Position numbers and translations under genes: made by a program. Below are positions 4,185 through 21,002 of a stretch of DNA of 64,000 bases, in pieces. Source of the stretch: Achromobacter seleniivolatilans (GTDB taxonomy: Bacteria > Pseudomonadota > Gammaproteobacteria > Burkholderiales > Burkholderiaceae_B); NCBI RefSeq assembly GCF_030864005.1, contig NZ_CP132976.1:2418001-2482000 (forward strand). Direction: 5' to 3'. Under the pieces are notes generated by a model. That model saw nothing but the letters and a program-made list of their open reading frames with translations, did not search any database and had not been told where the DNA came from. Each line of letters begins with the position of its first letter. Positions within the stretch are counted from its first letter, which is position 1.

Positions 4185-4661
4185 ATGAAGAAGAGCGTGC
4201 TCGCTGCCCCAGCCACTGCACTGACTATGGCGCTATCTGCCGTATGCGCTGCGGAAGAAGCGCCGGTCACAGTCACCAAGGTGGGCTCTCAGCCCTCCAC
4301 CCCCGGCCCCGAGCAGTACTTCACAGGAGCTGTGCGTGTGGACTCTCGGTTTCAGGCCCCCGCGCCCGCTCGTCTGGGCGGCGGCATCGTGACCTTCGAG
4401 CCAGGCGCGCATACCGCCTGGCACACCCATCCCCTGGGACAAACGCTCATAGTGACCGCCGGCGCCGGACGCGTGCAGAAATGGGGTGACGCGATCCAGG
4501 AGATCCGTCCAGGCGATGTTGTTTGGATTCCGCCTGGCGTGAAGCACTGGCATGGGGCCAGCCCCACGATGAGCATGAGCCACATTGCACTCTCGGAGTC
4601 CTTGGATGGCAAGTCGGTGGACTGGATGGAAAAGGTCAGCCAGGAGCAGTACGGACACTAA
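4185..4661 (+). CDS. Exported cupin, (R)-hydroxynitrile-lyase-like
   Basis: A 158-residue single-domain cupin with an N-terminal signal peptide (cleavage near AVCAA-EE, residues 22-24). The core matches bacterial manganese cupins annotated as (R)-mandelonitrile/hydroxynitrile lyases: [14 protein letters not shown], then [16 protein letters not shown]. The expected metal ligands are His80, His82, Gln86 and His121. Most homologues with this signature are cytoplasmic and about 130 residues, so the signal peptide is notable. Lyase activity may be incidental and the natural role is not known. The RBS AAGGAAG is well placed. It probably shares a transcript with the aldo/keto reductase. Confidence 0.88.
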
Positions 4662-4667
4662 GCAAGA

Positions 4668-4759
4668 CAATGTCTCATTATTCATGCCGATTTGTCTCGG
4701 CTCCCTGAATATTGCGGCTTCCACAGAGGGGCGCAGTGTAAATTCGCCAACGATTTCAC
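4668..4759 (+). promoter_or_regulatory. 92-bp two-block upstream element, copy 1 (before DUF1254 gene)
   Basis: Block 1 (31 bp, from 4668) contains TGTCTC at 4671-4676 and again at 4693-4698, a direct repeat spaced 22 bp, i.e. two helical turns. Block 2 (26 bp, ending 4759) reads CAGTGTAAATTCGCC then ACGATTTCAC. The same blocks, 35 bp apart in both cases, occur at 8783-8874 upstream of the phosphatase operon in the same orientation relative to the gene: 28/31 and 25/26 identical. The DUF1254 start codon is 63 bp further on. Direct repeats spaced 22 bp suit an AraC-type activator, and the AraC gene at 6000 is the natural candidate. Confidence 0.72.
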
Positions 4760-4822
4760 GCACGGGACACCTGAGAAGATCAAGTGCCCGCACGTGGCAG
4801 CATCCGGCACAAGAGGCTTTAC

Positions 4823-5854
4823 ATGTCATATTCATCCGCGTCCTGCATCGTCGCTCTGACGTTGGCAACTTTGGGGAGCGCGAGCGCTCAGTCCGCCTCT
4901 GATCCGGCAATATTGGTTGGTGTCAATAATTTCGCCCGTGCCGAGTCCGATCTGTACATGGGCAAGATGGTGGCGGCTGGCAGTCTTGGACGGTTCATTC
5001 ATAGCCGCGCGCCAACTGCCATCGACGCCCAGAATGTGGTCCGCATGAACCGCGACACGCTGTACTCAGAAGCCGTGTTCGATCTTGATGCCGGGCCAGT
5101 CACGATCAAGATGCCCGAGGCCGGTGCACGATTCATGTCGATGCAAGTGGTCGATGAGAACCACTACGTGCCCGCCGTCTTTTACGGCGCTGGCAGCCAC
5201 ACGCTGGCGAAAGAGCAGATTGGCACGCGGTATGTCTTTGTCGCTATCCGCACGCTTGTTGATCCCGCCAATCCCAAAGACCTTGAGCAGGTCCATGCGC
5301 TGCAAGACGCCATCAAGGTAAGCCAGGCCAATGCAGGAACATTCGTCGTCCCTAAATGGGATCAGGCGAGCCAGAACAAGGTGCGTGATGCACTGAATGT
5401 TCTGGGTGCGACGATTCCCAACTACAACGAGTCCTTTGGCCCGAAGGGCACGGTGAATCCGATTCACCACCTGATCGGAACCGCGACGGGCTGGGGTGGA
5501 AATCCAAGCAAGGACGCCATCTACCTGAGCGGTGAAGTGCCAAAGAACGACGGGAAAACCGTATATCGGCTCAAGGTGGGCAGTGTCCCGGTCAAGAGCT
5601 TCTGGTCAGTCGCCGTTTACAACGCAGACGGATACTTCGAGAAGAATCCGTACGACGCCTATTCGTTGAATAACCTGACCGCCGTAAAAAGCAGTGATGG
5701 TTCGATTGACATCCAGCTAGGCGGATGCGATGGAAAAATCCCCAATTGCCTGCCCATCACGCCCGGTTGGAACTACACGGTCAGGCTCTATCAGCCAAGT
5801 GACGACGTGCTCAATGGCAAATGGAGTTTTCCGCAACCGCAACCGCAGCTTTAG
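4823..5854 (+). CDS. DUF1254/DUF1214 exported protein
   Basis: A 343-residue exported protein. A signal peptide covers about residues 1-22 (cleavage after ASAQS). It is followed by the DUF1254 region (about 40-160; NRDTLYSEAVFDLDAGPVTI is typical) and a C-terminal DUF1214 region (PVKSFWSVAVYNADGYF, then the NYTVRLYQPSDDVLNGKW ending). Proteins with this pair are widespread in proteobacteria and have no firmly established biochemistry. The start is placed at MSYSS, because an RBS-like AAGAGG precedes it and the signal peptide begins there. The gene stands alone behind the conserved element at 4668-4759. Confidence 0.9.
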   Translation: MSYSSASCIVALTLATLGSASAQSASDPAILVGVNNFARAESDLYMGKMVAAGSLGRFIHSRAPTAIDAQNVVRMNRDTLYSEAVFDLDAGPVTIKMPEAGARFMSMQVVDENHYVPAVFYGAGSHTLAKEQIGTRYVFVAIRTLVDPANPKDLEQVHALQDAIKVSQANAGTFVVPKWDQASQNKVRDALNVLGATIPNYNESFGPKGTVNPIHHLIGTATGWGGNPSKDAIYLSGEVPKNDGKTVYRLKVGSVPVKSFWSVAVYNADGYFEKNPYDAYSLNNLTAVKSSDGSIDIQLGGCDGKIPNCLPITPGWNYTVRLYQPSDDVLNGKWSFPQPQPQL

Positions 5855-5910
5855 CCTTCAATTCGCGCTTTTGAGCGCCTGAGACGCAGGTACACTGTTG
5901 CGACCGGTTA

Positions 5911-5952
5911 CAGCGCTGACTGTCTGTCTTGATGCACAGACGGAAAGCGCTG
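5911..5952. promoter_or_regulatory. Symmetrical 42-bp interrupted palindrome upstream of AraC gene
   Basis: The arms are CAGCGCT, then 4 unpaired bases, then GTCTGT, an 8-base centre, ACAGAC, 4 unpaired bases, AGCGCTG. The layout 7/4/6/8/6/4/7 is exactly symmetrical. It sits 57 bp after the DUF1254 stop and 47 bp before the AraC start. It could be a factor-independent terminator stem (no T-run seen) or an autoregulatory operator. Confidence 0.5.
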
Positions 5953-5999
5953 GCTACCTGCCCAACGATGGGGCTTGCGACTTAAGGTAAGACGTCAAC

Positions 6000-7046
6000 A
6001 TGACTTGCTCAGAAACGTTCATTTCCACCGACGCAATAGAGCATTCGCTGCGTGACGAATACTGGCGTGAAGTCACGCGCCCGTTCTGCGATACGACGCT
6101 TGCTGCGCCTGACGGCGCCGCAACGTTAGAGGGAACCATGCGAATCCGCCATCTTGGCGGATTGACGCTGGGCTCAACCACCTTTAACGCGCAGCGCTAC
6201 AAGCGGGACAAGGCCACTATCGCTCGCAGCGGGCTGGATCACTATCTGGTTCATGTTGTGGCCGCCGGTTCCATCTACGGGGATTTTGACGGCCGCGACG
6301 TGATGGCGGCCCCGGGCGGGATATGCATTATCGATCTTGCCCGGCCTTATGAATGCAAGGTGGACGCTGGCGAAAGATTAGCCACGACCATTCCACGCGC
6401 GGGCATCGATAAATTGTTGGGCGCCCGCGATCTTCATGGATTTGTGCTTGAAGCGCAGCAAGCCATGACGCGTCTGCTTGTGGACTACCTCAGCGGTTTT
6501 CACGCGGTCTCGGGACAGTTGTCCGCAAGCGAAGACGACGCGGCACAAGAAGCCCTGACTACGCTTCTTTCAGCCGGGCTGGCGAACACTGCTCCCGTTC
6601 AGGATGGTCCGAAATCCGTGCTGGGGCAGGCTCTGCGCGCGCGTGCCCTTGACTATATTGGGCGCAACCTGGCCGAACCCGCGCTGGGCCCGGATCTGCT
6701 TATCCAACGCTTCAGAGTCTCTCGGGCGCACTTATATCGCGTCTTTTCTGAACTTGGCGGTGTCGTCCATGTGATCAAGACCAAGCGCCTTGACGCGGCC
6801 TATGCCCTTTTCACCGATCCGCGCAGCTCAACGCGCCCCGTGCACCAAGTCGCAGTGGACGTTGGATTTCGCGATATGGGACGATTTCGCAAGGCGTTCA
6901 CTACGCGCTTTGGCGTGTCGCCCGACGACGCCAGGCAAGGAAGCCGCAACGCCGGGTCGACTATAGACAGCTCCAATGCGCTATCAAGCCATTTTGCCGC
7001 GCACCGTCATATGCCAGGCGCGGCCCAGCGTTTTCAGAACTGGTAG
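6000..7046 (+). CDS. AraC-family transcriptional regulator
   Basis: A 348-residue regulator. The N-terminal part (about residues 1-190) resembles the AraC-binding-like cupin domain, including DHYLVHVVAAGSIYGDFDG and GGICIIDLARP. The C-terminal AraC/XylS DNA-binding domain (about 208-318) has two helix-turn-helix units: LLIQRFRVSRAHLYRVF and VHQVAVDVGFRDMGRFRKAF. The last ~30 residues are an unconserved tail. It lies between the DUF1254 gene and the phosphatase/barrel operon, both of which carry the same 92-bp element, so it is the best candidate for their activator. Its 3' end overlaps the convergent barrel gene by 13 bp. Confidence 0.92.
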   Translation: MTCSETFISTDAIEHSLRDEYWREVTRPFCDTTLAAPDGAATLEGTMRIRHLGGLTLGSTTFNAQRYKRDKATIARSGLDHYLVHVVAAGSIYGDFDGRDVMAAPGGICIIDLARPYECKVDAGERLATTIPRAGIDKLLGARDLHGFVLEAQQAMTRLLVDYLSGFHAVSGQLSASEDDAAQEALTTLLSAGLANTAPVQDGPKSVLGQALRARALDYIGRNLAEPALGPDLLIQRFRVSRAHLYRVFSELGGVVHVIKTKRLDAAYALFTDPRSSTRPVHQVAVDVGFRDMGRFRKAFTTRFGVSPDDARQGSRNAGSTIDSSNALSSHFAAHRHMPGAAQRFQNW

Positions 7047-7825
7047 GCAAGCCCCACAATCGGCCCTTGCTGCACGACGTTGTAAACAAAGCCGTTCCGG
7101 TTGTAATTGACGCCAAGCGCCCGGTAGCCAAGCACTGCCGAAAGATTGGACTTGAACTGATAGCCAATCGCTGCCGTGGCGTCCCAATCAAGCTTGGCTT
7201 GGCCTGCGCCAACAACGCCCCAGCCGGTCAGGTACCAATGCTCGCTCAAGGCGTATTGCCCCCGCAGGCCGGCCACCGCATCGATCCAGGTTGCGCTGTC
7301 GCTTCGGCTTCTGTCGCCGATGACCCCGCCTTTCAACGCGATGGTCGTGCTTGCACGCCACAGCCGTCCGCCGCCGATAACGTCCAGATGCCCCCTGTCG
7401 CTTTCAAGCACGGTGTAGCCCGCACCCAAAAATCCGGAGAAGGACTTGGACTTGATGTCGACTTTTCGGCTGAGTAAGCCGTACTGAGTATTGCCGCCGC
7501 CAGAGAGTTGGCTATACATCAAGTCGCCCACCACGCTGAATCGCTTGTACCGCGCTTCGACGGCCCCCATGAAGGCCAGATCAAGCTCGCTGACAATGTC
7601 GCTGAAACTGGAATTCAGCCTGGCCGGCGGCTGCCCGAACTGCCCCACCTTTCCGCTGATTCCAGACGCCCACACATAGGGGCTTGCGCTGACACGCCAT
7701 TCATCGGAATTGCCGGATTCGTTCTTTAGAAGAGGACTGATCGGCAGCGGGTTGTCTGCGTATGCGGAATTGGATGCTCCGAGCAGCATGCCCAATAGAA
7801 TCAGCGGGGTAGAAACAAATTTCAT
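7034..7825 (-). CDS. Outer-membrane beta-barrel protein
   Basis: A 263-residue protein with a signal peptide (about residues 1-23, AYA-DN cleavage). Alternating hydrophobic strands follow and the protein ends in an aromatic-terminated strand (GPIVGLAYQF), the usual barrel-insertion signal. The WRVSASPYVWASGISGKVGQ segment is characteristic of a family of uncharacterised outer-membrane proteins of about 250 residues. No transport substrate can be named. It lies 56 bp downstream of the acid phosphatase gene on the same strand, so the two are probably co-transcribed from the promoter carrying the 92-bp element. Confidence 0.85.
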   Translation of the reverse strand: MKFVSTPLILLGMLLGASNSAYADNPLPISPLLKNESGNSDEWRVSASPYVWASGISGKVGQFGQPPARLNSSFSDIVSELDLAFMGAVEARYKRFSVVGDLMYSQLSGGGNTQYGLLSRKVDIKSKSFSGFLGAGYTVLESDRGHLDVIGGGRLWRASTTIALKGGVIGDRSRSDSATWIDAVAGLRGQYALSEHWYLTGWGVVGAGQAKLDWDATAAIGYQFKSNLSAVLGYRALGVNYNRNGFVYNVVQQGPIVGLAYQF

Positions 7826-7881
7826 GTGTACTCAATGATGCGGCGTCTTTGACATTGGCGAGAGGGCGAGTCGCAGTCTCA

Positions 7882-8709
7882 CTAGTTGGAAAGCGCGGCG
7901 TCCTCTGCCTTGCAGTTCAAGCCTGCGGCCGGCTGCTTTGCTTGGGCCGCCTGCACTTCTTTGCGTGCCGCATCCACATCGGCACGAAACTCGGGATAGG
8001 TTTGCAACAGGGCTACGGTTGCCGCACCCATCGTGCGTCCGGCATCCACATCACTTTGCCAATGCGCATTGCAAACGACTCGGCTCTGCCCAAAGTCCAA
8101 CCCGCGCTTGAACAGCTGGTTGGCGCGAGCGGGATTGATTTCAGCCAAGACCAGGGCCCAGGCCCAACCTGCCGCCGTATGACCCGACGGGTATGAACCG
8201 TCCTTGCGCAGCAAGGGCTCTTGGTCGGGGAAACATGTGCCTTCGTTGTGGACGACAAACGGGCGGACGCGGTTATAGGTGTTCTTGACGCCATAGGTAG
8301 ACAAGCCCGCGTCGGTAAGCACCTTCTGCATCAAACGATACAGGTGCGGGGTCTGCGCCTCGGTGATATCAACACCCATCGCGCACGAGAAGTTCTTGGC
8401 AGGTTGCGGAAACTGCAAGTCAGCGTCCAGACGCGCCTGTGTTGCGCGCGCCGAGCCGCGCAACGGAATCGTGGCAGTCCTTGCCTCTTCATCGCGAGCC
8501 AGCGCGGCGCTGCTCGCTGCCGGAGGCGGTCCAAGCAGATCGAGACTATTGGGCAAGCTTTCTTTGGGGATGTAGCCGGGCGCCAGATCGAAGTGCGGAT
8601 CGGTCACTTTCGGGCCTGCCGCATTGTCTGCCGCGTATGAAATCGCGCCGGTCATGCCAATGAGCGCCAGAGAAATGCTGGCCGCCTTACTACGTATAGT
8701 TGAATACAT
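7882..8709 (-). CDS. Class A non-specific acid phosphatase (PAP2 family)
   Basis: A 275-residue exported phosphatase. The signal peptide covers residues 1-27 (SYA-AD). All three catalytic motifs of the PAP2/vanadium-peroxidase fold are present: KX6RP (Lys142 to Arg149-Pro150), PSGH (174-177) and SRX5HX3D (Ser209, Arg210, His216, Asp220). Length and spacing match the PhoN-type periplasmic acid phosphatases, which release phosphate from organic phosphomonoesters. The promoter region holds the second copy of the 92-bp element. The barrel gene follows and may provide outer-membrane passage or an unrelated function. Confidence 0.93.
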   Translation of the reverse strand: MYSTIRSKAASISLALIGMTGAISYAADNAAGPKVTDPHFDLAPGYIPKESLPNSLDLLGPPPAASSAALARDEEARTATIPLRGSARATQARLDADLQFPQPAKNFSCAMGVDITEAQTPHLYRLMQKVLTDAGLSTYGVKNTYNRVRPFVVHNEGTCFPDQEPLLRKDGSYPSGHTAAGWAWALVLAEINPARANQLFKRGLDFGQSRVVCNAHWQSDVDAGRTMGAATVALLQTYPEFRADVDAARKEVQAAQAKQPAAGLNCKAEDAALSN

Positions 8710-8782
8710 ACGATCTTTACCGTGAATCAGATTGCTGGACGCTCCACTCTCAAACGCCTAGTCTTTCCAAAGCGTCTTGCAG

Positions 8783-8874
8783 GTGAAATCGTGGGCGAAT
8801 TTACACTGATGCCTTCGGATAACAGCGTAAGAATCATCGGATTGAGACAGATCGGCACGATTAATGAGACATTG
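8783..8874 (-). promoter_or_regulatory. 92-bp two-block upstream element, copy 2 (before phosphatase gene)
   Basis: Read leftward toward the phosphatase gene, this begins CAATGTCTCATTA and ends CCCACGATTTCAC. It has the same total length (92 bp) and the same block positions as the copy at 4668. The TGTCTC direct repeat is again spaced 22 bp (seen on the plus strand as GAGAC at 8844 and 8866). The inner end is 73 bp upstream of the phosphatase start. The outer end is close to the ClbS/DfsB start codon, so it could also affect that gene. Confidence 0.72.
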
Positions 8875-8894
8875 CGGCACCCAGGAGGATTGGC

Positions 8895-9407
8895 ATGGCA
8901 GTACCTCAGAACAAGCAAGATCTATTGGATGCGATTCGCACTACGTATCAGAAATTGGCGGTGGATCTTGCCGGGGTACCGCCCGAACGCGCTCATGAAG
9001 CCACGCTGGAAGGCCATGCGCTGGGCACGAAAATGAGCGTGGCCAACTTGGTGGCCTACCTGATCGGCTGGAATCTGCTGGTGCTCAAGTGGTGCCATGC
9101 CAAGACCCAGGGGCTTCCCGTTGATTTCCCTGAAACAGGCTACAAGTGGAACGAACTGGGCCGCCTGGCGCAGAAATTCTATGCTGATCATTCAGAGCAG
9201 CCGTATCCGGCGCTGCTGCAACAATTCGCTGCTGTGCATGCTCGCATCGTGGCTTTGGTCGAACAGGCAAGCGATACCGCGCTGTATGGCTCGCCTTGGT
9301 ACGAGAAGTACACCCAAGGCCGAATGATTCAATTCAATACCTCTTCCCCCTATGCCAATGCGCGCATCCGGTTGCGCAAGTGGAAGAAGGCCAACGACAT
9401 TGCTTGA
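8895..9407 (+). CDS. ClbS/DfsB-family four-helix-bundle protein
   Basis: A 170-residue protein of the ClbS/DfsB (DinB-like four-helix) family. Seen directly: the N-terminal NKQDLLDAI, the MSVANLVAYLIGWNLLVLKW segment and the C-terminal SPYANARIRLRKWKK that ends most members. ClbS itself is a cyclopropane hydrolase giving resistance to the genotoxin colibactin; DfsB and most relatives are uncharacterised. The RBS AGGAGG is near-consensus. The VOC gene follows after 32 bp and probably shares the transcript. Confidence 0.88.
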   Translation: MAVPQNKQDLLDAIRTTYQKLAVDLAGVPPERAHEATLEGHALGTKMSVANLVAYLIGWNLLVLKWCHAKTQGLPVDFPETGYKWNELGRLAQKFYADHSEQPYPALLQQFAAVHARIVALVEQASDTALYGSPWYEKYTQGRMIQFNTSSPYANARIRLRKWKKANDIA

Positions 9408-9439
9408 ACTGTGTACGCAAGACACAACGGAGATAAGAA

Positions 9440-9811
9440 ATGTTCGATCACATCGGTTTCGGCGTCAGCGATATCAATCAGAGCCGTGAGTTCTTTCTAC
9501 AAGCGCTAAGTCCGCTTGGGGTCGGCCTGGCCATGGAGGGCCCCAACAGCATAGGCTTGGGCAAACAAGGCAAACCGTCCTTGTGGTTGTACGCAAGCTC
9601 TGCGGTTGCGGCTCCTTTGCATATCGCCATTGCAGCGGCTACGCGGGCGGAAGTGGACGCCTTTTACCAAGCGGCTATCGCGGCGGGTGGCAGAGATAAC
9701 GGCGCCCCAGGACTTCGTCCGCATTACCATCCCAACTACTACGCCGCCTTTGTATTCGGCCCAGATGGCCACAATGTGGAAGCCGTCTGCCACCGTCCAC
9801 AAGAGGAATAG
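9440..9811 (+). CDS. VOC-family (glyoxalase/dioxygenase-fold) protein
   Basis: A 123-residue single vicinal-oxygen-chelate protein. It starts MFDHIGFGVSDI, has YYAAFVFGPDGHNVEAVCH near the C-terminus, and contains His and Glu residues in the usual metal-binding places (His4, Glu near residue 116). Small members of this family are variously isomerases, dioxygenases or resistance proteins, and nothing in the sequence decides the reaction. It probably sits in an operon with the upstream ClbS/DfsB gene. Confidence 0.85.
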   Translation: MFDHIGFGVSDINQSREFFLQALSPLGVGLAMEGPNSIGLGKQGKPSLWLYASSAVAAPLHIAIAAATRAEVDAFYQAAIAAGGRDNGAPGLRPHYHPNYYAAFVFGPDGHNVEAVCHRPQEE

Positions 9812-9827
9812 GACGACACAAGCGGAC

Positions 9828-10709
9828 TCATTGCGGCGCCAACAGACCCAGCAAACTCACCAGCGCTATCACCCCTCCGCCAAGCCATAGCTCAAGAACG
9901 GTGTTGCGGCGAATATGGGAAAGCGCCGCACCCCGCCTTGTCCGCAGGGCGGGAATCCAGCGATACCGGTTGATGAGCGCCAGCGCTACCATTGCCAGCG
10001 CCAACAGGATTTTTATGGCCAGCAGTTGCTGGTAGCCTGACTGCAAATCCCAACCTGCTGGCCACAGAATCATCAGGGCATTGAGCGCCCCGCTTAGCAA
10101 AAGGGCCGCCACCGCAATATGCCCGGCAGTGGAAAACCGCAGCAGTGCGCGAGTTGCGTCCTTTTTGTAGGCGGGCTCGTTCCAGAGTTTTAGGAACCCA
10201 AGAAAAACGGGCAACGATCCCAACCAGAAACCTGCGGCAAGACAATGGACGGCATCGCTGGCGGCATGCGCAAACCCTGGCCATCCCTCGTTCATTGCGG
10301 CATGACCGCTAAGACTAAGCGGCAACAGCGCAATGCCAGCCGCCACCGCGCGCAGCCCCGCCTTGGCCGGAGATGCCCAAAGAAAGACTACCGCCACCAG
10401 CAACACTGCAATGGCGCGCAACATCCATGCCTGTCCGTAGCGCGTCTGAAACGCCACTACGGAAAGCATGTCCGCGTCCCACATACCCCGCCAAGCGTCG
10501 GCGATGGTTGCGGTTTGCAGTGGCAACAGGCAGAGCACTGCCAGCGCCCCGACAATCGCTACTCGGCGCAACATCTTGCGCAAGATCGCTTCCACAGACA
10601 GGCTCAGACCGCGCGACCCGCTCATCGCCAACATGGCAGCGGCCCCAAAAAGCAGGATCGCTGACACGTAGGCAACAAGCCGGCACAACGCGAACGCGGC
10701 AAGCATCAT
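9828..10709 (-). CDS. copD: Copper resistance D family protein (CopD)
   Basis: A 293-residue inner-membrane protein with about eight hydrophobic segments, matching the CopD/PcoD family. Membrane-embedded His and Met-bearing segments such as LSLSGHAAMNEG and HCLAAGFWLGSLPVFL are typical. CopD works with periplasmic CopC in copper import or handling across the inner membrane. The start lies 3 bp after the copC stop, so the two are translated from one message. It ends convergently against the VOC gene with a 16-bp gap. Confidence 0.9.
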   Translation of the reverse strand: MMLAAFALCRLVAYVSAILLFGAAAMLAMSGSRGLSLSVEAILRKMLRRVAIVGALAVLCLLPLQTATIADAWRGMWDADMLSVVAFQTRYGQAWMLRAIAVLLVAVVFLWASPAKAGLRAVAAGIALLPLSLSGHAAMNEGWPGFAHAASDAVHCLAAGFWLGSLPVFLGFLKLWNEPAYKKDATRALLRFSTAGHIAVAALLLSGALNALMILWPAGWDLQSGYQQLLAIKILLALAMVALALINRYRWIPALRTRRGAALSHIRRNTVLELWLGGGVIALVSLLGLLAPQ

Positions 10710-13940: not shown

Positions 13941-16900
13941 CTAGAACGGCACTGCCAGTTTCAAGGCCCCTGAATGGCTGTTGCCTTGCGAGGCAAACTC
14001 ACCGTCGTACTGCAAGCGGAAATCAACGCCTTGGACGTTAAGGACCTGGATACCTGCCCCGACGCGGCCAATGACGTTGGCCGTTGGCATGTTCGAGGTG
14101 AACTTGCCGGCGTCTTCTGCTGCGCCATCCAGGCGGGCTTTGCTCTTCCACCCGTCTTCCGACAGGAACGAAACGCCTGCGTAGGCAAATGGCCGCATGA
14201 CGGCGCCCTTGGGCAGGTTTACGCGTCCGCCGATTTCCAGCGTTGGAGCCAAGCCCAACACAAACTGCTCGCTGGCGTCGACCTTCAAACGCAGGACATC
14301 GCCCGATTCGCTATAGGCGGGCATGCGTGAGTAGGTGGCAGTCAGGTCGGCATACGGTTTGAGGTAGAAGTTGCCTTGATCAAAGGTGCGTGCGGCGCGA
14401 AGACGAGCCCCAAAACTGTACACGCCAGGGCTGCTCTTGGCCTCTTTATCGAAGGTTTCGATGTTGAGGTTTCGGGTCAGATCATAGGAGCCATAGCCGC
14501 CACCCAAAGCGCCAGAGAATGTCCAGGCGCCAGCTTGACGCTTCAGAACAACCCCCGCGTAACCCGAGCCGCCGGTGCCACTGACGCGGCGGTCATCTCC
14601 ATACAAGCGCGTGTTCTGGTAGGCCACCGAGCCGCCCAGATACCAGTTAGGCGCAACCTCGCGCTGTCCGCCAAACTGGTAGGTCTGGCTGTCGTACGAG
14701 AAGCCTGACGAGCCGCTGCCGGCGTCCTGGTTGGTGCGCCTTGCTGAGAATTCGCCCCAGAAGCAATTCTGCTCTTGAGTCAGCATTCCGCCATCGACAA
14801 ATGTGGGGCAAGACATCATGGCATTGGAAAAGCGCGCCATGCCAAACTGCATCTGCGCGGCGGGCGCCAGAGCCACGCCCGGAGAAAGATCTGTCACCCG
14901 GTCGCGATACGCGCCCGCGCCCTGCCTGGACGCGTTATCAAGCACGGCGTACAACTGCGACAAGGCCGCCGAGCCGCCTTGATCCCAAGTGCGCTGCAAG
15001 TGCCCGGCAACACTGGCCTGGTTACGCCGCAACTGCATTGCGCTGGCGTTAAAGCTAGCGCCTGCCACTCGCACGTGGGTCGTGTTGCCGGCTTGGCGCG
15101 TTTCGTAATCGAAAATAGGCGAGTCGAACGCGGTCAATGACCCGGACTGCACGCCGTTGACCGTCAGAACGGCCAATTCGCGGTTGGGCATGAGCGCGCG
15201 CGGCGCGATCAACAACTGGCCGTCAAGACGGGCCGTGCCATTGACGACCAGAGCGTCTGACTGCAAGGTGTTGAAGTCTGCGCCCGCCTGCAAGATGCCT
15301 GTAGAGGTCTGCGTCAGCGAACCGGTCAGTGTGGTGGTGGCGTAGCGGGTGCGCGCGATGCTCGAGCCAAGTGCCTCGTCGCCGCCCAGCGTGATCAACC
15401 CGCTGTTGACAAGATCGCCGCGGAATTCAGCGCCCGCGACGTAGTTACCCGCGTTGTTCATCTGACCGCCGTTCAGGTCGACGGAGCCCGACACTGTGCC
15501 GCTGTTGGTCACGCCAAGCGCAGCGCCTGTCGCCAAAATGGCGGTGCCTCCATGGCCAGACACGGAACCTGTCTGGTCGACCACGAGCGTACTCGGTGCT
15601 TTGCTGTCGACCCACAGGCCCGCGCCCGAAGTTGCCGTGCCGCCCGCCACAAAACCCGACACCTGCACGGATACGCCTTTATTGGAGTTGGCGCTTTGCG
15701 CAAAAATACCGACGCCATTGACGCCGCCCGCTGCGACGACACCGCTTTGGGCGACATTGACGTTGACGGTACCTACGCCCCACGTTAAGTCCCATTGATC
15801 CACACCCGCGCCCGCATAGACGGTTTGCCCATCCGGAGTCAGCACCAGGCCGCCGCTTCCGCTCACACTTTGCGCCAGGATGCCGATTGCCCCGGGCCCG
15901 GTTACGGAAATCAAACCATTGGCCGTGACGTTCACGGCGCCGCCAGACCCAAAACCGGCGGTAATCATGCCGCTCTGGGTTTGGTCCACGGTCAGCTTTG
16001 CGGCGGTGCCGGGCAGGCCGATAATGCCGCCGCCGCCTCCTACCGACTGTGCGATCACGCCATGGGCGCCCGTGCCGGTCGTGAAGATCTGACTTTGCTG
16101 CGCGAGGTTGACGTTCACCGCGCCGCCCTGATTGGGCGAAAGCGAGCTTACGCCAGCGCCCACTACTGATGTCACGATCCCCTGGGGCCGCTGCTGATTC
16201 TGCGAGTTGATGGCCATCCCGCCCGCGCCGCCCACGCTCTGCGCGATGATGCCGTAGGCATTGTTGCCCGCCGTCGAGATCATCAGGCCGCTGGTGTCAT
16301 TGACGGTAATTGCGCCGCCATTGCCCTGGCTTGCGTTGACGGTGCCGCCCACCTTGATCTGGAACGAAGGGATCGTGTCGTCGGCCGCGCTGATTCTCAG
16401 GCTGGTGCCCGCGCCAGCAAAGCCGCCACCGCCGCCCACTGACTGAAGCACCGCGCCAAACCCGGCTTCGCCGGAAGTGGAAATCACTGTGGGAGTGCCG
16501 CTGGTGCTGAGGCTGACCGCGCCGCCCGAGCCGCCGCCACCGCCTGTCGCGCCATAGGCTACCCCCAAGGCCAGCGTCCCAACAAAGCCGTCAGACCCGC
16601 TCGCGCCATGGCCGCCGCCACCGCCCACACTCTGCGCGAAAATCCCGGCGCCCGCGAAGCCTTGCGTCGATATGGCGCCGCCGTTCAGCGCGGTGGCCAC
16701 GGCGCCGCCATCGGCGCCGAAGCCCCCAGCGCCGCCCAGCGACAGGTTGGTATTCAGATCAAAGACCGCCGGGTCAATCCATCCTGTGCCAGTGGCGAAT
16801 GCGGTGCCGCCTTTGCCGCCACCGCCGCCCACGCTTTGCGCAAACATGCCAGCGGACCAATCACCAACGGTCTGAATCGTCGCGCCCGAGCCAAGCGTCA

Positions 16901-19900
16901 GGCCCACCGCGCCCCCGGTATTACCGGACCCGCCTGCGCCGCCAAACGACAGGGACGCATCGAAATGAAAGGTGCCGCTGCCTTTGCCCTTCTGGATGAA
17001 GCTTGCGATATTTTTGGCCACGTCGCTGGCGGCAGCGCGGGCATTGAGCGAGGCAAGGATGGGATTGTCGAAAGAGGCATCCGCGCCGGCCGAACCGCCC
17101 TGCCCGCCGCCGCCGCCGATGGACTGCGCCTGCACACCGGGCGCGTCGGCGCCGTTGGTAACGATCGCGCCATCAACAGCCACAGTGACGGCCCCGCCGT
17201 GACCGCCCGCCGCACCTTGATTGCCGAACTTGATCGACAGGTTTCCGCCTACGTGGGAGGTCGCTCCGGTGACGGTGAACGACCCGCCTTGGGCCGCCCC
17301 GCCACCGCCGCCGATGCTTTGCGCCAGCACGCCGATAGCGCCGGAGCCCCATGTTTGCACCACGCCCGCTGGCATGACCTGCACTCCGACGGTGCCGCCG
17401 TTGCCGCCTCCCGCACCGGTACCGCCCAAAGCCAACGACGGCGAAACATTGGTTCCGGTGCCAAAGTTCTGCGTGTTGGTACTACCAAAACCCGCATTAC
17501 CGCCACCGCCGCCGATGGATTGCGCGGTTATGCCGTTAGCGTAGTCGCCGTAGGTCGTAATGTTGCTGCTTGGCCCCGAGGCCGCATCGGCGGTAAAGGC
17601 CGCTAGTCCATTCGACACGTTGATCAAACCGCCCACGGCCGACCAGACCGAGCCGCCATTGCCGCCCGCACCGCCGCCCGCCCCAAGCGCGAAAGACGTG
17701 TCCACGGACACCGATGTCCCGCCTTCGATCTCGCCGTAGCCCAGTGATGCCGCCAGCGAGGACGAGTCGCCGCCCGCGCCGCCGCCGCCGCCGATGCTCT
17801 GGATCAGCACCCCGTGCGAGCCTTGCCCCGCCGTTGTGATCTTGGCGCCTTGAGCGGTAGCGAACGTGACGTAATTACCATCACCCGCGATCCCGCCCTG
17901 GCCGCCCAGCGAAACCGCCGCCGAAATAGAGAGCTGCGTTCCATTCGGCGTGATCGGTATTGAGATGGCAGCGGCCTCGGCCGTGGCGTTGCCGCCTAGC
18001 CCGCCGCCGCCGCCAATACTCTGGATGACCGCCCCAAATGCATCTACAGGCAGAAGGTTGGTAGGGGCGCATGGCTGCGTAGCGCACCCGGTGCCTGTCA
18101 GTCCTGGCACTTGGCCCGTGGCGATGCTGCTGGCAACCAGTTGCGCGCTGACCACTCCGCCATTGCCTCCGGTACCGCCTTGCCCGCCCACGGCCACGGC
18201 GCCACTGATGCCTGGGCTGACGGAAGTTCCAAAGGCCCGGCCCCCCGTGCCACCGCCGCCGCCGATAGACTGCCCGACGATGCCAGCCGCCTTCGTTCCC
18301 TGCGTGACTATCTTGCTATTGCCGAGGTTGATGCTCACGCCATTACCCGAGCCGCCGCCGCCCGCAGTCTGGCCGAGCGCACTTGACGAGAAGATGCCCA
18401 GGCTACCGGCATTGCCGGCATTGCCGCCCCCGCCACCGATGGATTGGGCTACAAAACCATAGGCGTTGTCGCCCGCTGTCTGAATCAGAAAGGACTCAAG
18501 ACTGGCAGCGACAGCGCCGCCATAGCCGCCCTTGCCGCCGGTGCCTCCAATACTGACCTTGCCTTGGGACGCGCCGCCCGCGCCCCCTCCGCCACCGATA
18601 GACTGTGCCAGTACGCCAATCGCGGAGACGCCGCTGGTGCTGATCGATCCCGATGACAAGCCGTTGATATTGATCGTGTTGCCATTGGAGAGCGACGGAT
18701 TCGACGTGCTGTCGCCACCCAGCGAATAACCCAGCCCGGACGCGCTGCCTGCCACGCCGCCGCTCCCGCCAATCGATTGGGCGACGATGCCTACCGCCAC
18801 ATCGCCAGCCGTAACGATCTGACCCGAGGTCGACACGAAGACTGTCCCCGCCGCGCCGCCCTCTCCGCCCGAGCCGCCCTTGCTGAAAATAACGCCCGAA
18901 TTCGCGCCCCCGGCGCCACCGCCGCCGGCAAGCGATTGCGCAAGTATGCCGATCGCATCGGTGCCGCCTGTTGTGATGCGGGCTGCGTTATTGACGGTGA
19001 CGGCGCCGGAGCTGCCGCCAGCGCCGCCTTGGCCCGCCGATCCGCTCGTCTGTCCATCGGCATAACCTGCAATGCCGCCCGAACCGCTGGCCGTCTGGGC
19101 AACGATACCCAGCGCGCCCTGTCCTTGCGTGGAAATGGATGTAGCCGCATCGGTAGTCAACGTGATGTTTCCCGCCGAGCCCCCATTGCCGCCGTTCGAA
19201 CCCAGCGCCACCGTTTGTGTGCTGCTACCGCCCGCCCCGCCGTCGTTGCCAAGATTCTGCGCAAGAACGCCAAACGCAGAGCTGCCTTGAGTCGCGATGC
19301 GGGTGCCTTGCAGCGTCACCGTCATCGCGCCAGTACTGCCGCCCGTGCCGCCGTTGCCGCCCTGGCCGCCGCCGATGGTGCCGGTCAGGATGCCGCCATC
19401 AGCACCCAGACCGCCTTCCAGCGCGGCATACACCCCATGAGATTGCGCACCGGTCGTAGTGATGGTGATCGGCAAAGCCGCACTGCCATTCAATTGGACG
19501 CTCAGGCTTCCGGCATTGCCGCCCGCCCCGCCATTGCCAGCGTTGCTGCCGCCTATACCAAGGCCGTCGCCGCCGTAGGCGCCGCCGGCGCCCCCCGCGC
19601 CGCCTTGCTGCAAGGTTTGGATGGCGGCCGAATTGTCGCCGGTCGTCGACAGTGAAATTGCCACGCTGGACGCCTGCACCGACAGGCTCGCATCCCCGGC
19701 GATTCCGCCGCTTCCGCCGTGGCGGTCGTGATAACTGCCCGTATTGAACTGCCCAGCACCCGCGCCGCCCTGCGCCCACAGGCGCAATGCAGGGAGCTTG
19801 TCGCCCGTCGTGATGACGCTGGTGTCAGTGTTGTTGATCTGTACGGAAGCTTGGGACGGCAGCGCCCCAGCATTGATGGCGCCTGCATTGCCCGCGTTGC

Positions 19901-21002
19901 CGCCTAGCACGTCGTCTTCGTCGGCCAAGCCGTTGCCGCCATTGCCGCCCAGAACAATAGCGGCAACGCCAGCGCCAGCAGCTGGCGGCGTTCCGGACTG
20001 GTTGACCTTGACGGACCCGCCGGTCAGCAGCGTGACGACCGCGCTGCCTGCGTTCCCGCCCGCACCGCCATTGCCCAGCCCATTCGAGAGTGCATCGCCG
20101 CCGTTGCCACCTTTGGACTGGGCCAGGATGCCGTACACGCCAGCATCGTTGCCCGAGCTGTTATTGGCCCAGGTCCAGTTCACCAGCACTTGGCCGCTGT
20201 TCTGAAGCGACACATTGCCCGAACCCCCGCCGTAGTTGCTGCCGCCGTCGTATTGATCAGCGCCGTTCCCGCCGTTGCTGGAAGCCTGGATGCCCGCAAA
20301 GCGGGCCGTCCCCATGAGGTTGACGTTAACGCTGCCGGAATTATTGACCCGGGCCCCCGCAGACTGACCGCCAGGGCCATAGGGGTTATGGTCGTCATTG
20401 GTTCCTGCGCCCGCGCCGCCCTGGCTCAAGGCCGCAATTGCTGCCCCGCCTGCCGCCGTAACGGTGGACAGCTGCGACATGTCGACCGACGCTGAATTGG
20501 TCAACGAGACGATCCCGTTGGTTCCCGCGTTGCCGCCGCCCCCTCCGTGTTTGTCATCGCTAGAAGAGGCCGCATCGCCGCCCCGCATCTGAGCCAATAC
20601 GCCGTAGATGGGACCATTCGTGATGACGTAGTTCGCGCTTAGAACGATGCTGCCGCTGTTGTTGACCGTGAGGCTACCCGCACTGCCACCGTTCAAGTCA
20701 CCGCTGGGGTTGCCGGCTGCGCCTTCGGCCAACACCGACAAGCCCGCCGTGAAACCCGCCGTCACTCCCGCGCTGATATTCATGCCGGTCGTGACGGACA
20801 TCTGCGGAACGGGTGAATTCTGGCCGGCAGGCGGCTGCACCACGACGGGGCTCCAGTACGAACCCGTCAGGTTGCAACTAAGACCGTTGCCCCCCGGTGG
20901 GCAAGTGAGCGCGGCCTGGGCGGAAGCCACGCTGCTCAACAAAGCACCCGCAATCGCTGCGGCAAGTTGGTTCGGGCGGGGGGAAAACACGCGGTACGAC
21001 AT
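13941..21002 (-). CDS. Giant glycine-repeat autotransporter (type V secretion)
   Basis: A 2353-residue protein. The signal peptide spans about residues 1-30 (SVASAQA). The long passenger has about 27 imperfect repeats built around (G)hhAQS(I/V)GGGGGxGG, spaced roughly 60-100 residues. The C-terminal autotransporter barrel occupies about the last 280 residues, starting near ENCFWGEFSARR and ending SGALKLAVPF. Repeats are near-uniform in the middle of the passenger and degenerate toward both ends. Such proteins are exposed on or released from the cell surface and usually act in adhesion, aggregation or biofilm. No protease triad was recognised. Confidence 0.93.
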   Translation of the reverse strand: MSYRVFSPRPNQLAAAIAGALLSSVASAQAALTCPPGGNGLSCNLTGSYWSPVVVQPPAGQNSPVPQMSVTTGMNISAGVTAGFTAGLSVLAEGAAGNPSGDLNGGSAGSLTVNNSGSIVLSANYVITNGPIYGVLAQMRGGDAASSSDDKHGGGGGNAGTNGIVSLTNSASVDMSQLSTVTAAGGAAIAALSQGGAGAGTNDDHNPYGPGGQSAGARVNNSGSVNVNLMGTARFAGIQASSNGGNGADQYDGGSNYGGGSGNVSLQNSGQVLVNWTWANNSSGNDAGVYGILAQSKGGNGGDALSNGLGNGGAGGNAGSAVVTLLTGGSVKVNQSGTPPAAGAGVAAIVLGGNGGNGLADEDDVLGGNAGNAGAINAGALPSQASVQINNTDTSVITTGDKLPALRLWAQGGAGAGQFNTGSYHDRHGGSGGIAGDASLSVQASSVAISLSTTGDNSAAIQTLQQGGAGGAGGAYGGDGLGIGGSNAGNGGAGGNAGSLSVQLNGSAALPITITTTGAQSHGVYAALEGGLGADGGILTGTIGGGQGGNGGTGGSTGAMTVTLQGTRIATQGSSAFGVLAQNLGNDGGAGGSSTQTVALGSNGGNGGSAGNITLTTDAATSISTQGQGALGIVAQTASGSGGIAGYADGQTSGSAGQGGAGGSSGAVTVNNAARITTGGTDAIGILAQSLAGGGGAGGANSGVIFSKGGSGGEGGAAGTVFVSTSGQIVTAGDVAVGIVAQSIGGSGGVAGSASGLGYSLGGDSTSNPSLSNGNTININGLSSGSISTSGVSAIGVLAQSIGGGGGAGGASQGKVSIGGTGGKGGYGGAVAASLESFLIQTAGDNAYGFVAQSIGGGGGNAGNAGSLGIFSSSALGQTAGGGGSGNGVSINLGNSKIVTQGTKAAGIVGQSIGGGGGTGGRAFGTSVSPGISGAVAVGGQGGTGGNGGVVSAQLVASSIATGQVPGLTGTGCATQPCAPTNLLPVDAFGAVIQSIGGGGGLGGNATAEAAAISIPITPNGTQLSISAAVSLGGQGGIAGDGNYVTFATAQGAKITTAGQGSHGVLIQSIGGGGGAGGDSSSLAASLGYGEIEGGTSVSVDTSFALGAGGGAGGNGGSVWSAVGGLINVSNGLAAFTADAASGPSSNITTYGDYANGITAQSIGGGGGNAGFGSTNTQNFGTGTNVSPSLALGGTGAGGGNGGTVGVQVMPAGVVQTWGSGAIGVLAQSIGGGGGAAQGGSFTVTGATSHVGGNLSIKFGNQGAAGGHGGAVTVAVDGAIVTNGADAPGVQAQSIGGGGGQGGSAGADASFDNPILASLNARAAASDVAKNIASFIQKGKGSGTFHFDASLSFGGAGGSGNTGGAVGLTLGSGATIQTVGDWSAGMFAQSVGGGGGKGGTAFATGTGWIDPAVFDLNTNLSLGGAGGFGADGGAVATALNGGAISTQGFAGAGIFAQSVGGGGGHGASGSDGFVGTLALGVAYGATGGGGGSGGAVSLSTSGTPTVISTSGEAGFGAVLQSVGGGGGFAGAGTSLRISAADDTIPSFQIKVGGTVNASQGNGGAITVNDTSGLMISTAGNNAYGIIAQSVGGAGGMAINSQNQQRPQGIVTSVVGAGVSSLSPNQGGAVNVNLAQQSQIFTTGTGAHGVIAQSVGGGGGIIGLPGTAAKLTVDQTQSGMITAGFGSGGAVNVTANGLISVTGPGAIGILAQSVSGSGGLVLTPDGQTVYAGAGVDQWDLTWGVGTVNVNVAQSGVVAAGGVNGVGIFAQSANSNKGVSVQVSGFVAGGTATSGAGLWVDSKAPSTLVVDQTGSVSGHGGTAILATGAALGVTNSGTVSGSVDLNGGQMNNAGNYVAGAEFRGDLVNSGLITLGGDEALGSSIARTRYATTTLTGSLTQTSTGILQAGADFNTLQSDALVVNGTARLDGQLLIAPRALMPNRELAVLTVNGVQSGSLTAFDSPIFDYETRQAGNTTHVRVAGASFNASAMQLRRNQASVAGHLQRTWDQGGSAALSQLYAVLDNASRQGAGAYRDRVTDLSPGVALAPAAQMQFGMARFSNAMMSCPTFVDGGMLTQEQNCFWGEFSARRTNQDAGSGSSGFSYDSQTYQFGGQREVAPNWYLGGSVAYQNTRLYGDDRRVSGTGGSGYAGVVLKRQAGAWTFSGALGGGYGSYDLTRNLNIETFDKEAKSSPGVYSFGARLRAARTFDQGNFYLKPYADLTATYSRMPAYSESGDVLRLKVDASEQFVLGLAPTLEIGGRVNLPKGAVMRPFAYAGVSFLSEDGWKSKARLDGAAEDAGKFTSNMPTANVIGRVGAGIQVLNVQGVDFRLQYDGEFASQGNSHSGALKLAVPF

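Follow-up and report, generated by a model that had tools for sequence, protein, structure and literature searches.

Two 92-bp elements that face each other across a four-gene group of Achromobacter seleniivolatilans are probably two copies of one activator-dependent promoter answering to the AraC-family regulator encoded between them. The elements lie in a 64,000-nucleotide stretch of the genome (contig NZ_CP132976.1, positions 2,418,001 to 2,482,000, hereafter the window), and each consists of a distal block (D), a variable middle, and a proximal block (P). The regulator, AraC1, is the AraC protein at window 6000-7046. Under the same reading, to which we give a probability of roughly 0.68, the gene of a second AraC-family regulator, araC2, would be a further target, and AraC2 itself would act through a separate motif, W. 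The conservation of the elements, their positions, their links to genes, and their co-occurrence with the regulators are observed.

As we picture the circuit, D (TGTCTC-N16-TGTCTC with conserved inner sequence) would serve as an operator of two tandem direct repeats, spanning about -80 to -53, and P would supply the -10 box (TAAATT) and the transcription start. One AraC1 dimer would span both TGTCTC repeats and recruit polymerase from upstream, thereby switching on DUF1254 and the pap2-barrel operon. Because DUF1254 is followed in the same direction by araC1, both here and in several relatives, AraC1 would also raise its own level. It would further switch on araC2, 1.33 Mb distant in the window genome, and AraC2 most likely acts via W before EAL, Ysc84, pqiABC and, in some species, DUF1254, so that the whole would form a two-step envelope regulon. 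AraC1 binding, activation, the -10 box and start, and the direction of the cascade are what we infer here from sequence. Features of the locus are listed below in window coordinates.

4668..4698, plus strand: D on the DUF1254 side, with TGTCTC at 4671-4676 and 4693-4698 (22-bp period); proposed AraC1 operator
4734..4759, plus strand: P on the DUF1254 side, proposed to hold the -10 hexamer (TAAATT, 4739-4744) and the initial transcribed region; start probably near 4751
4823..5854, plus strand: DUF1254/DUF1214 protein whose N-terminus looks signal-like by eye; proposed first target
6000..7046, plus strand: AraC1, AraC/XylS-family regulator (AraC_binding_2 + HTH_18), separated by 145 bp from the end of DUF1254 and read in the same direction; the proposed D/P activator
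7034..7825, minus strand: exported protein, barrel-like by eye and without a Pfam or NCBIfam match, encoded downstream of PAP2; the 3' ends of its gene and of AraC1 overlap by 13 bp
7882..8709, minus strand: PAP2-family phosphatase, PhoC-like (193.8 bits, under the PhoC cut-off of 430); proposed second target
8783..8808, minus strand: P on the PAP2 side, with proposed -10 hexamer at 8803-8798
8844..8874, minus strand: D on the PAP2 side, with TGTCTC at 8871-8866 and 8849-8844

Architecture of the elements

The two elements occupy 4668-4759 (plus strand) and 8783-8874 (minus strand) and face inward. D is identical between them at 28 of 31 positions (25/28 as a 28-mer, plus an identical CAA before it) and P at 25 of 26, and the 35-bp middle agrees, ungapped, at 15 of 35. 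TGTCTC is directly repeated at a 22-bp spacing (starts 4671 and 4693; on the minus strand, 8871 and 8849). The DUF1254-side element is separated from the start codon at 4823 by 63 bp (4760-4822) and the PAP2-side element from the PAP2 start at 8709 by 73 bp (8710-8782). An original prediction, made from the letters of the window, had given the lengths, coordinates, orientation, block identities, repeat spacing, and gene distances, and all were reproduced.

Neither D nor P found a match at ≤3 mismatches in 100 dinucleotide shuffles of the window, and at the same stringency each was found in the 6.86-Mb genome at the window's two sites only. A third, more diverged copy, missed at this cut-off, lies at G000:C1:1,088,261-1,088,352, upstream of araC2 and 1.33 Mb off (G000 is the window's own genome; other G numbers denote the family genomes compared). 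It was recovered (D 41.0, P 31.4 bits) by a weight matrix built without that copy; the matrix used 19 of 24 elements, omitting two of G011, the G029 PAP side, G017, and G026 C10, and its scan of the 64-kb window revealed no further element beyond the pair. The prediction had proposed scanning the rest of the genome, and this gave no other site at ≤3 mismatches; the diverged copy before araC2 had gone unseen.

Conservation was compared over a model of 21 aligned elements, which omitted two of G011 (as G012), the G029 PAP side (as G031), G034, G028, the G026 C10 copies, and the G029 DUF side, found later. Gapped pairwise identity, computed from 9 PAP, 7 AraC2, and 5 DUF elements, averaged 0.78-0.84 for D and P, within one promoter type and between types alike. 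The 35 bp upstream, the middle, and the 35 bp downstream gave 0.57-0.65, compared with 0.55-0.56 for random sequence. The usual -10 box is TATAAT. The invariants of P include T72, A73, A75, and T77 of the 92 columns (TAnAnT), which are the positions where TAAATT agrees with this consensus, suggesting a -10 role for P. Since start codons lie as close as 17 nt (G006 DUF1254) and 24 nt (G000 araC2) after P, the transcript most likely starts within P, and relative to such a start the D repeats would lie at about -80/-75 and -58/-53. No -35 box was noticed between D and P when the alignment was inspected by eye (no score was computed), so that RNA polymerase would be expected to need a D-bound protein. 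Both D hexamers share the same T/C change, as two copies of one site would. The elements thus resemble an AraC-dependent promoter in having a direct-repeat D upstream of a putative -10 box, both conserved in the 21 aligned elements. The prediction had regarded both blocks as operator, which fits D; for P, a role as the -10/start region is more likely than one in the operator. A structured RNA leader was considered and rejected, RNAalifold giving 0 pairs and Rfam 0 matches in 4500-9000, and a rough inverted repeat within P was discarded since its arms need gaps (by eye).

Distribution, and pairing of motifs with regulators

With ≤3 mismatches allowed, D matched in 12 of the 268 genomes of the family, each of them Achromobacter, and the backward control pattern matched nowhere. 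The element model (E ≤ 0.001) matched in 14 of the 268, again all Achromobacter, in a search whose stricter filters can lose weak matches; the 14 were identical to those found over 43 Achromobacter genomes (14/43). The latter search returned 28 matches at E ≤ 1.1e-12, of which 21 were model members and thus match by construction. Three genes are preceded by 25 of the 28 (PAP2-barrel 11, DUF1254 6, AraC2 8); of the remaining 3, two are orphans, in G034 and G028, and the third belongs to a decayed second copy of the gene group in G026. A further four, weaker matches (E 1.5e-5 to 0.049) come from G026 and G031. With genome and relatives so scanned for the two-block motif, the dispersed repeat that the prediction had allowed for is ruled out by the restriction to two window sites at ≤3 mismatches and by gene-linked strong matches in Achromobacter only.

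The order DUF1254-AraC1-barrel-PAP2 with inward D and P at both ends is found in G000, G007, and G014. In G011, G012, G013, G016, and G026, the DUF1254-side element lies ~1.2 kb from DUF1254 and araC2 fills the gap. In G006 and G029, DUF1254 and its own element are on a separate contig from the rest (in G006, far from the ends of both contigs). The same arrangement is seen in G031, but there the contigs measure only 10.6 and 7.4 kb and the separation is uncertain. The element accompanies relocated targets, namely DUF1254 in G006 and G029 and araC2 in G000 and G014. PAP2 matches (E ≤ 1e-50) occur in 13 of 43 genomes, 11 with D/P in front and two (G017, G039) without. DUF1254 matches occur in 13 of 43 as well: 6 have D/P directly upstream, 5 follow an araC2 that carries D/P, that of G017 stands behind W, and that of G037 (50% identity, in a genome without AraC1) has no D/P or W match. 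The small regulon originally proposed holds in that conserved promoter/operator-like elements precede a gene set, but it is not only local, araC2 being 1.33 Mb away and DUF1254 apart in G006, G029, and perhaps G031.

Worn copies were also observed. G026 C10 (L065, 9783-11860) carries a second, decaying gene group with AraC1 and DUF1254 fragments, a stop-free AraC2 (74%), and worn D/P, and G026 C28 (L123) a worn barrel fragment with partial P. The orphan elements are on the minus strand in G028 (L121, 7874-7965) and G034 (L064, 9534-9625), genomes without AraC1, DUF1254, or PAP2 orthologues; that of G028 precedes an SDR-like oxidoreductase gene (by eye) and has lost the invariant A of the proposed -10 box.

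AraC1 orthologues (E < 1e-140) were found in 12 of 268 family genomes and AraC2 orthologues (E ≤ 1e-60) in 9 of the 43 Achromobacter genomes. W, a second conserved motif, was read upstream of DUF1254 in AraC2 species as TTTGGCATCNAATGGCAAGC (also written TTTGGCAtCnAATGGCAAG), and was searched with a downstream TAnnnT at ≤2 mismatches in the 43 genomes. It was present in all nine AraC2 genomes and, with 2 mismatches each, in G020 and G041, where no EAL, Ysc84, pqiA, or DUF1254-like gene was recognised after it by eye; the backward control gave 0/43. The derivation of W from AraC2 loci partly accounts for its presence there, but not for its absence from AraC2-less genomes. Co-occurrence over the 43 genomes is given below as both/regulator only/motif only/neither, with Fisher p values that ignore kinship.

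AraC1 and D/P: 12/0/2/29 (p 5.9e-9)
AraC2 and W: 9/0/2/32 (p 9.8e-8)
AraC2 and D/P: 8/1/6/28 (p 1.6e-4)
AraC1 and W: 8/4/3/28 (p 4.0e-4)

Judging by these counts, D/P goes best with AraC1 and W with AraC2. G006, G007, G029, and G031 have AraC1 and D/P without AraC2 (at the cut-off above) and without W, and G039 has AraC2 and W without AraC1 and without D/P. The prediction had named the AraC protein at 6000 as the regulator; it is the better candidate of the two examined, all 12 carriers having the element, and its binding we infer from the same sequence comparisons.

In the window genome, W stands at 8540, 9425, and 10225 of L087 (G000:C1:1080000-1095000), before EAL, Ysc84, and pqiABC; at EAL, 54 bp separate the end of W from the first possible start of that protein, and the pqiABC row reads pqiA-pqiA-pqiB(MlaD)-pqiC. 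W is upstream of a row in G039 that comprises a protein judged EAL-like by eye, PAP2, barrel, and AraC2, and of a DUF1254-PAP2-barrel row in G017, so that W can take the place of D/P before the same targets. On the Agrobacterium plasmid pAt1D1460 (L126), a W-like site with 4 mismatches (8825-8844, minus strand) precedes DUF1254. The plasmid also has a barrel-region match, PAP2, a Crp/Fnr regulator gene, and, beside DUF1254, an AraC-family gene closer to AraC2 than to AraC1 (PF12625 22.7 bits, below the 27.6 cut-off). The module, perhaps with W control, may extend beyond Achromobacter.

Several observations weigh against AraC1 as the activator of D/P. AraC1 neighbours two of the targets within one gene group, which makes its co-occurrence partly a matter of linkage; AraC2 also correlates with D/P, and kinship is ignored in both tests. 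G017 has AraC1 (78%), yet its DUF1254-PAP2-barrel row is without the element and only its araC2 carries D/P, and the G034 element has an intact core (E 1.1e-16) in a genome without AraC1. Within AraC1, the DNA-binding region (residues 236-315, 32/80 invariant) is less conserved than the ligand domain (41-200, 86/160). Finally, D sits further from the -10 box than the sites of the regulator CphR do.

Alternative explanations and origin of the promoter copies

If AraC2 rather than AraC1 bound D, the elements would be autoregulatory and target promoters of AraC2, and AraC1 a target or bystander. Autoregulation would predict the element directly before araC2, where it stands in eight of nine AraC2 genomes, and AraC2 does co-occur with D/P as tabulated above. 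However, elements persist in G006, G007, G029, and G031, which have no AraC2 match at E ≤ 1e-60, G039 has AraC2 but no element, and AraC2 tracks W more closely than D/P, which makes this reading quite unlikely. The genes might instead be driven by a third regulator, or by an alternative sigma factor to which D itself serves as -35/-10 elements, and P would then be a leader motif. The two hexamers of D, 16 bp apart, are promoter-like, and first-look counts gave dozens of AraC-like candidates in these genomes. We consider this unlikely, given that the shared T/C change suits two copies of one site, that the P invariants fit a -10 box, that the G006 DUF1254 gene starts only 17 nt past P, and that the leader has no predicted RNA pairs or Rfam match.

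Very improbable is the idea that DUF1254, AraC1, barrel, and PAP2 make up a mobile cassette with the pair as its terminal inverted repeats. The inward-facing copies do bound ~4.2 kb, and the window's outer neighbours (cupin, AKR, DfsB, others) have no match in the other 19 loci, but elsewhere elements are found singly before DUF1254 or AraC2, and in G011, G012, G013, G016, and G026 they enclose AraC2 as well. A mobile element of this kind was rejected, since none of the four enclosed genes is transposase-like, no target-site duplication was seen by eye in the window (GACAA vs TTGCG), and single copies occur elsewhere.

The copies of the proposed AraC1-dependent promoter were also compared through their leaders, aligned after P in 15 pairs against 500 shuffles that preserve base composition only. 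The DUF1254-side leader of G007 aligns with the pap2 leader into the first pap2 codons (score 52, shuffle mean 21, reached by 0/500). That of G014 scored 40 against G007 pap2 (0/500) and 33 against its own pap2 (6/500), and the AraC2 leaders of G014, G017, and G013 scored 51, 56, and 52 against G007 pap2 (0/500 each). For the window's own pair, no leader homology was detected beyond D and P (score 18, reached by 246/500), and shuffles reached the scores of the AraC2 leaders of G013, G016, and G000 against their own pap2 in 223, 185, and 403 of 500 cases and that of the G031 leader pair in 111/500. With one pair of AraC2 leaders excluded, 6 of 14 pairs beat every shuffle. By these alignments, the DUF1254-side promoter is a duplicated pap2 promoter in two relatives (G007, G014); at least some of the promoters are therefore paralogues by duplication, with D and P kept by selection. 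The prediction had argued for function rather than simple duplication, a false opposition considering that the G007 and G014 DUF1254-side leaders are homologous to the pap2 leader.

We hold in even balance a broader proposal, in which two AraC regulators that differ in build share an envelope module and trade it between them. Most AraC1 species would have an AraC1 (D/P)-AraC2 (W) cascade. In the course of Achromobacter evolution, DUF1254 and PAP2-barrel would have moved between D/P and W control as the pap2 promoter was duplicated and captured, with remnants of the first pap2 codons left behind as scars, and as one regulator was lost.

Related systems and neighbouring sequences

AraC1 is an AraC/XylS-family protein by PF12833 (47.6 bits, cut-off 33.6) and PF14525 (56 bits, cut-off 27), and VSRAHLYR in its first helix-turn-helix is invariant across 12/12 orthologues. 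XylS/Pm-type promoters combine an AraC/XylS-family regulator with two direct-repeat half-sites upstream of the promoter. The same combination is common to D/P and to CphR-type promoters (PMC6205950). CphR recognises TGCA-N6-GGNTA half-sites that cover -35 to -49 and -55 to -69, with a 20-bp period and reaching -35; D/P, in contrast, has TGTCTC, a 22-bp period, and a position of about -80 to -53 from its likely start. Having no TGCA-N6-GGNTA half-sites, and a proximal TGTCTC at about -58 to -53 by that start, D/P falls outside the XylS/CphR type.

The best solved-structure relative of AraC1 by sequence is CuxR of Sinorhizobium meliloti (PDB 5NLA; PMC7499043; residues 20-315, E 6.1e-26), which is reported to stimulate exopolysaccharide genes with cyclic di-GMP (PMC12538310, PMC7499043, PMC9045272). 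Binding of cyclic di-GMP via an RxxxR site is a CuxR feature, and the likeness seen in AraC1 is one of overall homology. The best NCBIfam match of AraC1 is FeaR (NF007243), at 127.3 bits against a curated cut-off of 199, and AraC1 is thus not a FeaR equivalog. AraC2 (PF12625 Arabinose_bd + HTH_18) shares its Arabinose_bd build with GliR/QhpR and matches the QhpR model at 145.2 bits and the GliR model at 70.9, under both cut-offs (250 and 570). GliR also controls lipid genes, and its motifs, YYGGCGHTDTYSGMC and GGAYAWCGCCG, differ from W (PMC8151288). The circuit was not found described among the matches listed for open-licence papers on DUF1254, AraC direct repeats with TGTCTC, or Achromobacter; it is a further case of a familiar kind, a small AraC-type gene-control circuit with a second AraC tier.

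The analysis yields a proposed regulator-operator pair (AraC1-D/P) and a second, separable pair (AraC2-W). Both concern genes of unknown role (DUF1254, barrel, PAP2, Ysc84) with a tie to the PqiABC lipid-transport system, so that the function of the module becomes testable, and the natural loss of either regulator among related species provides a good comparative set for AraC promoter rewiring.

AraC1 relatives at ~36% occur in five other genera, where the window genes are not beside them in the loci read (L067-L070; L033, 3 kb), and 300 genomes drawn from the order held no AraC1 at E ≤ 1e-70 except the window's own. In Burkholderia sp. SRS-46 (L075), a pair of AraC1-like genes, at 8001-9005 (plus strand, 49%) and 9380-10396 (minus strand, 45%), point towards one another; the 17 kb examined there hold no cassette gene, and D finds no more than a weak match (10.3 bits), 8 kb distant. 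In the window itself, a glycine-rich 2353-aa open frame at 13941-21002 (minus strand), without a Pfam match, resembles by eye a large surface autotransporter-type protein.

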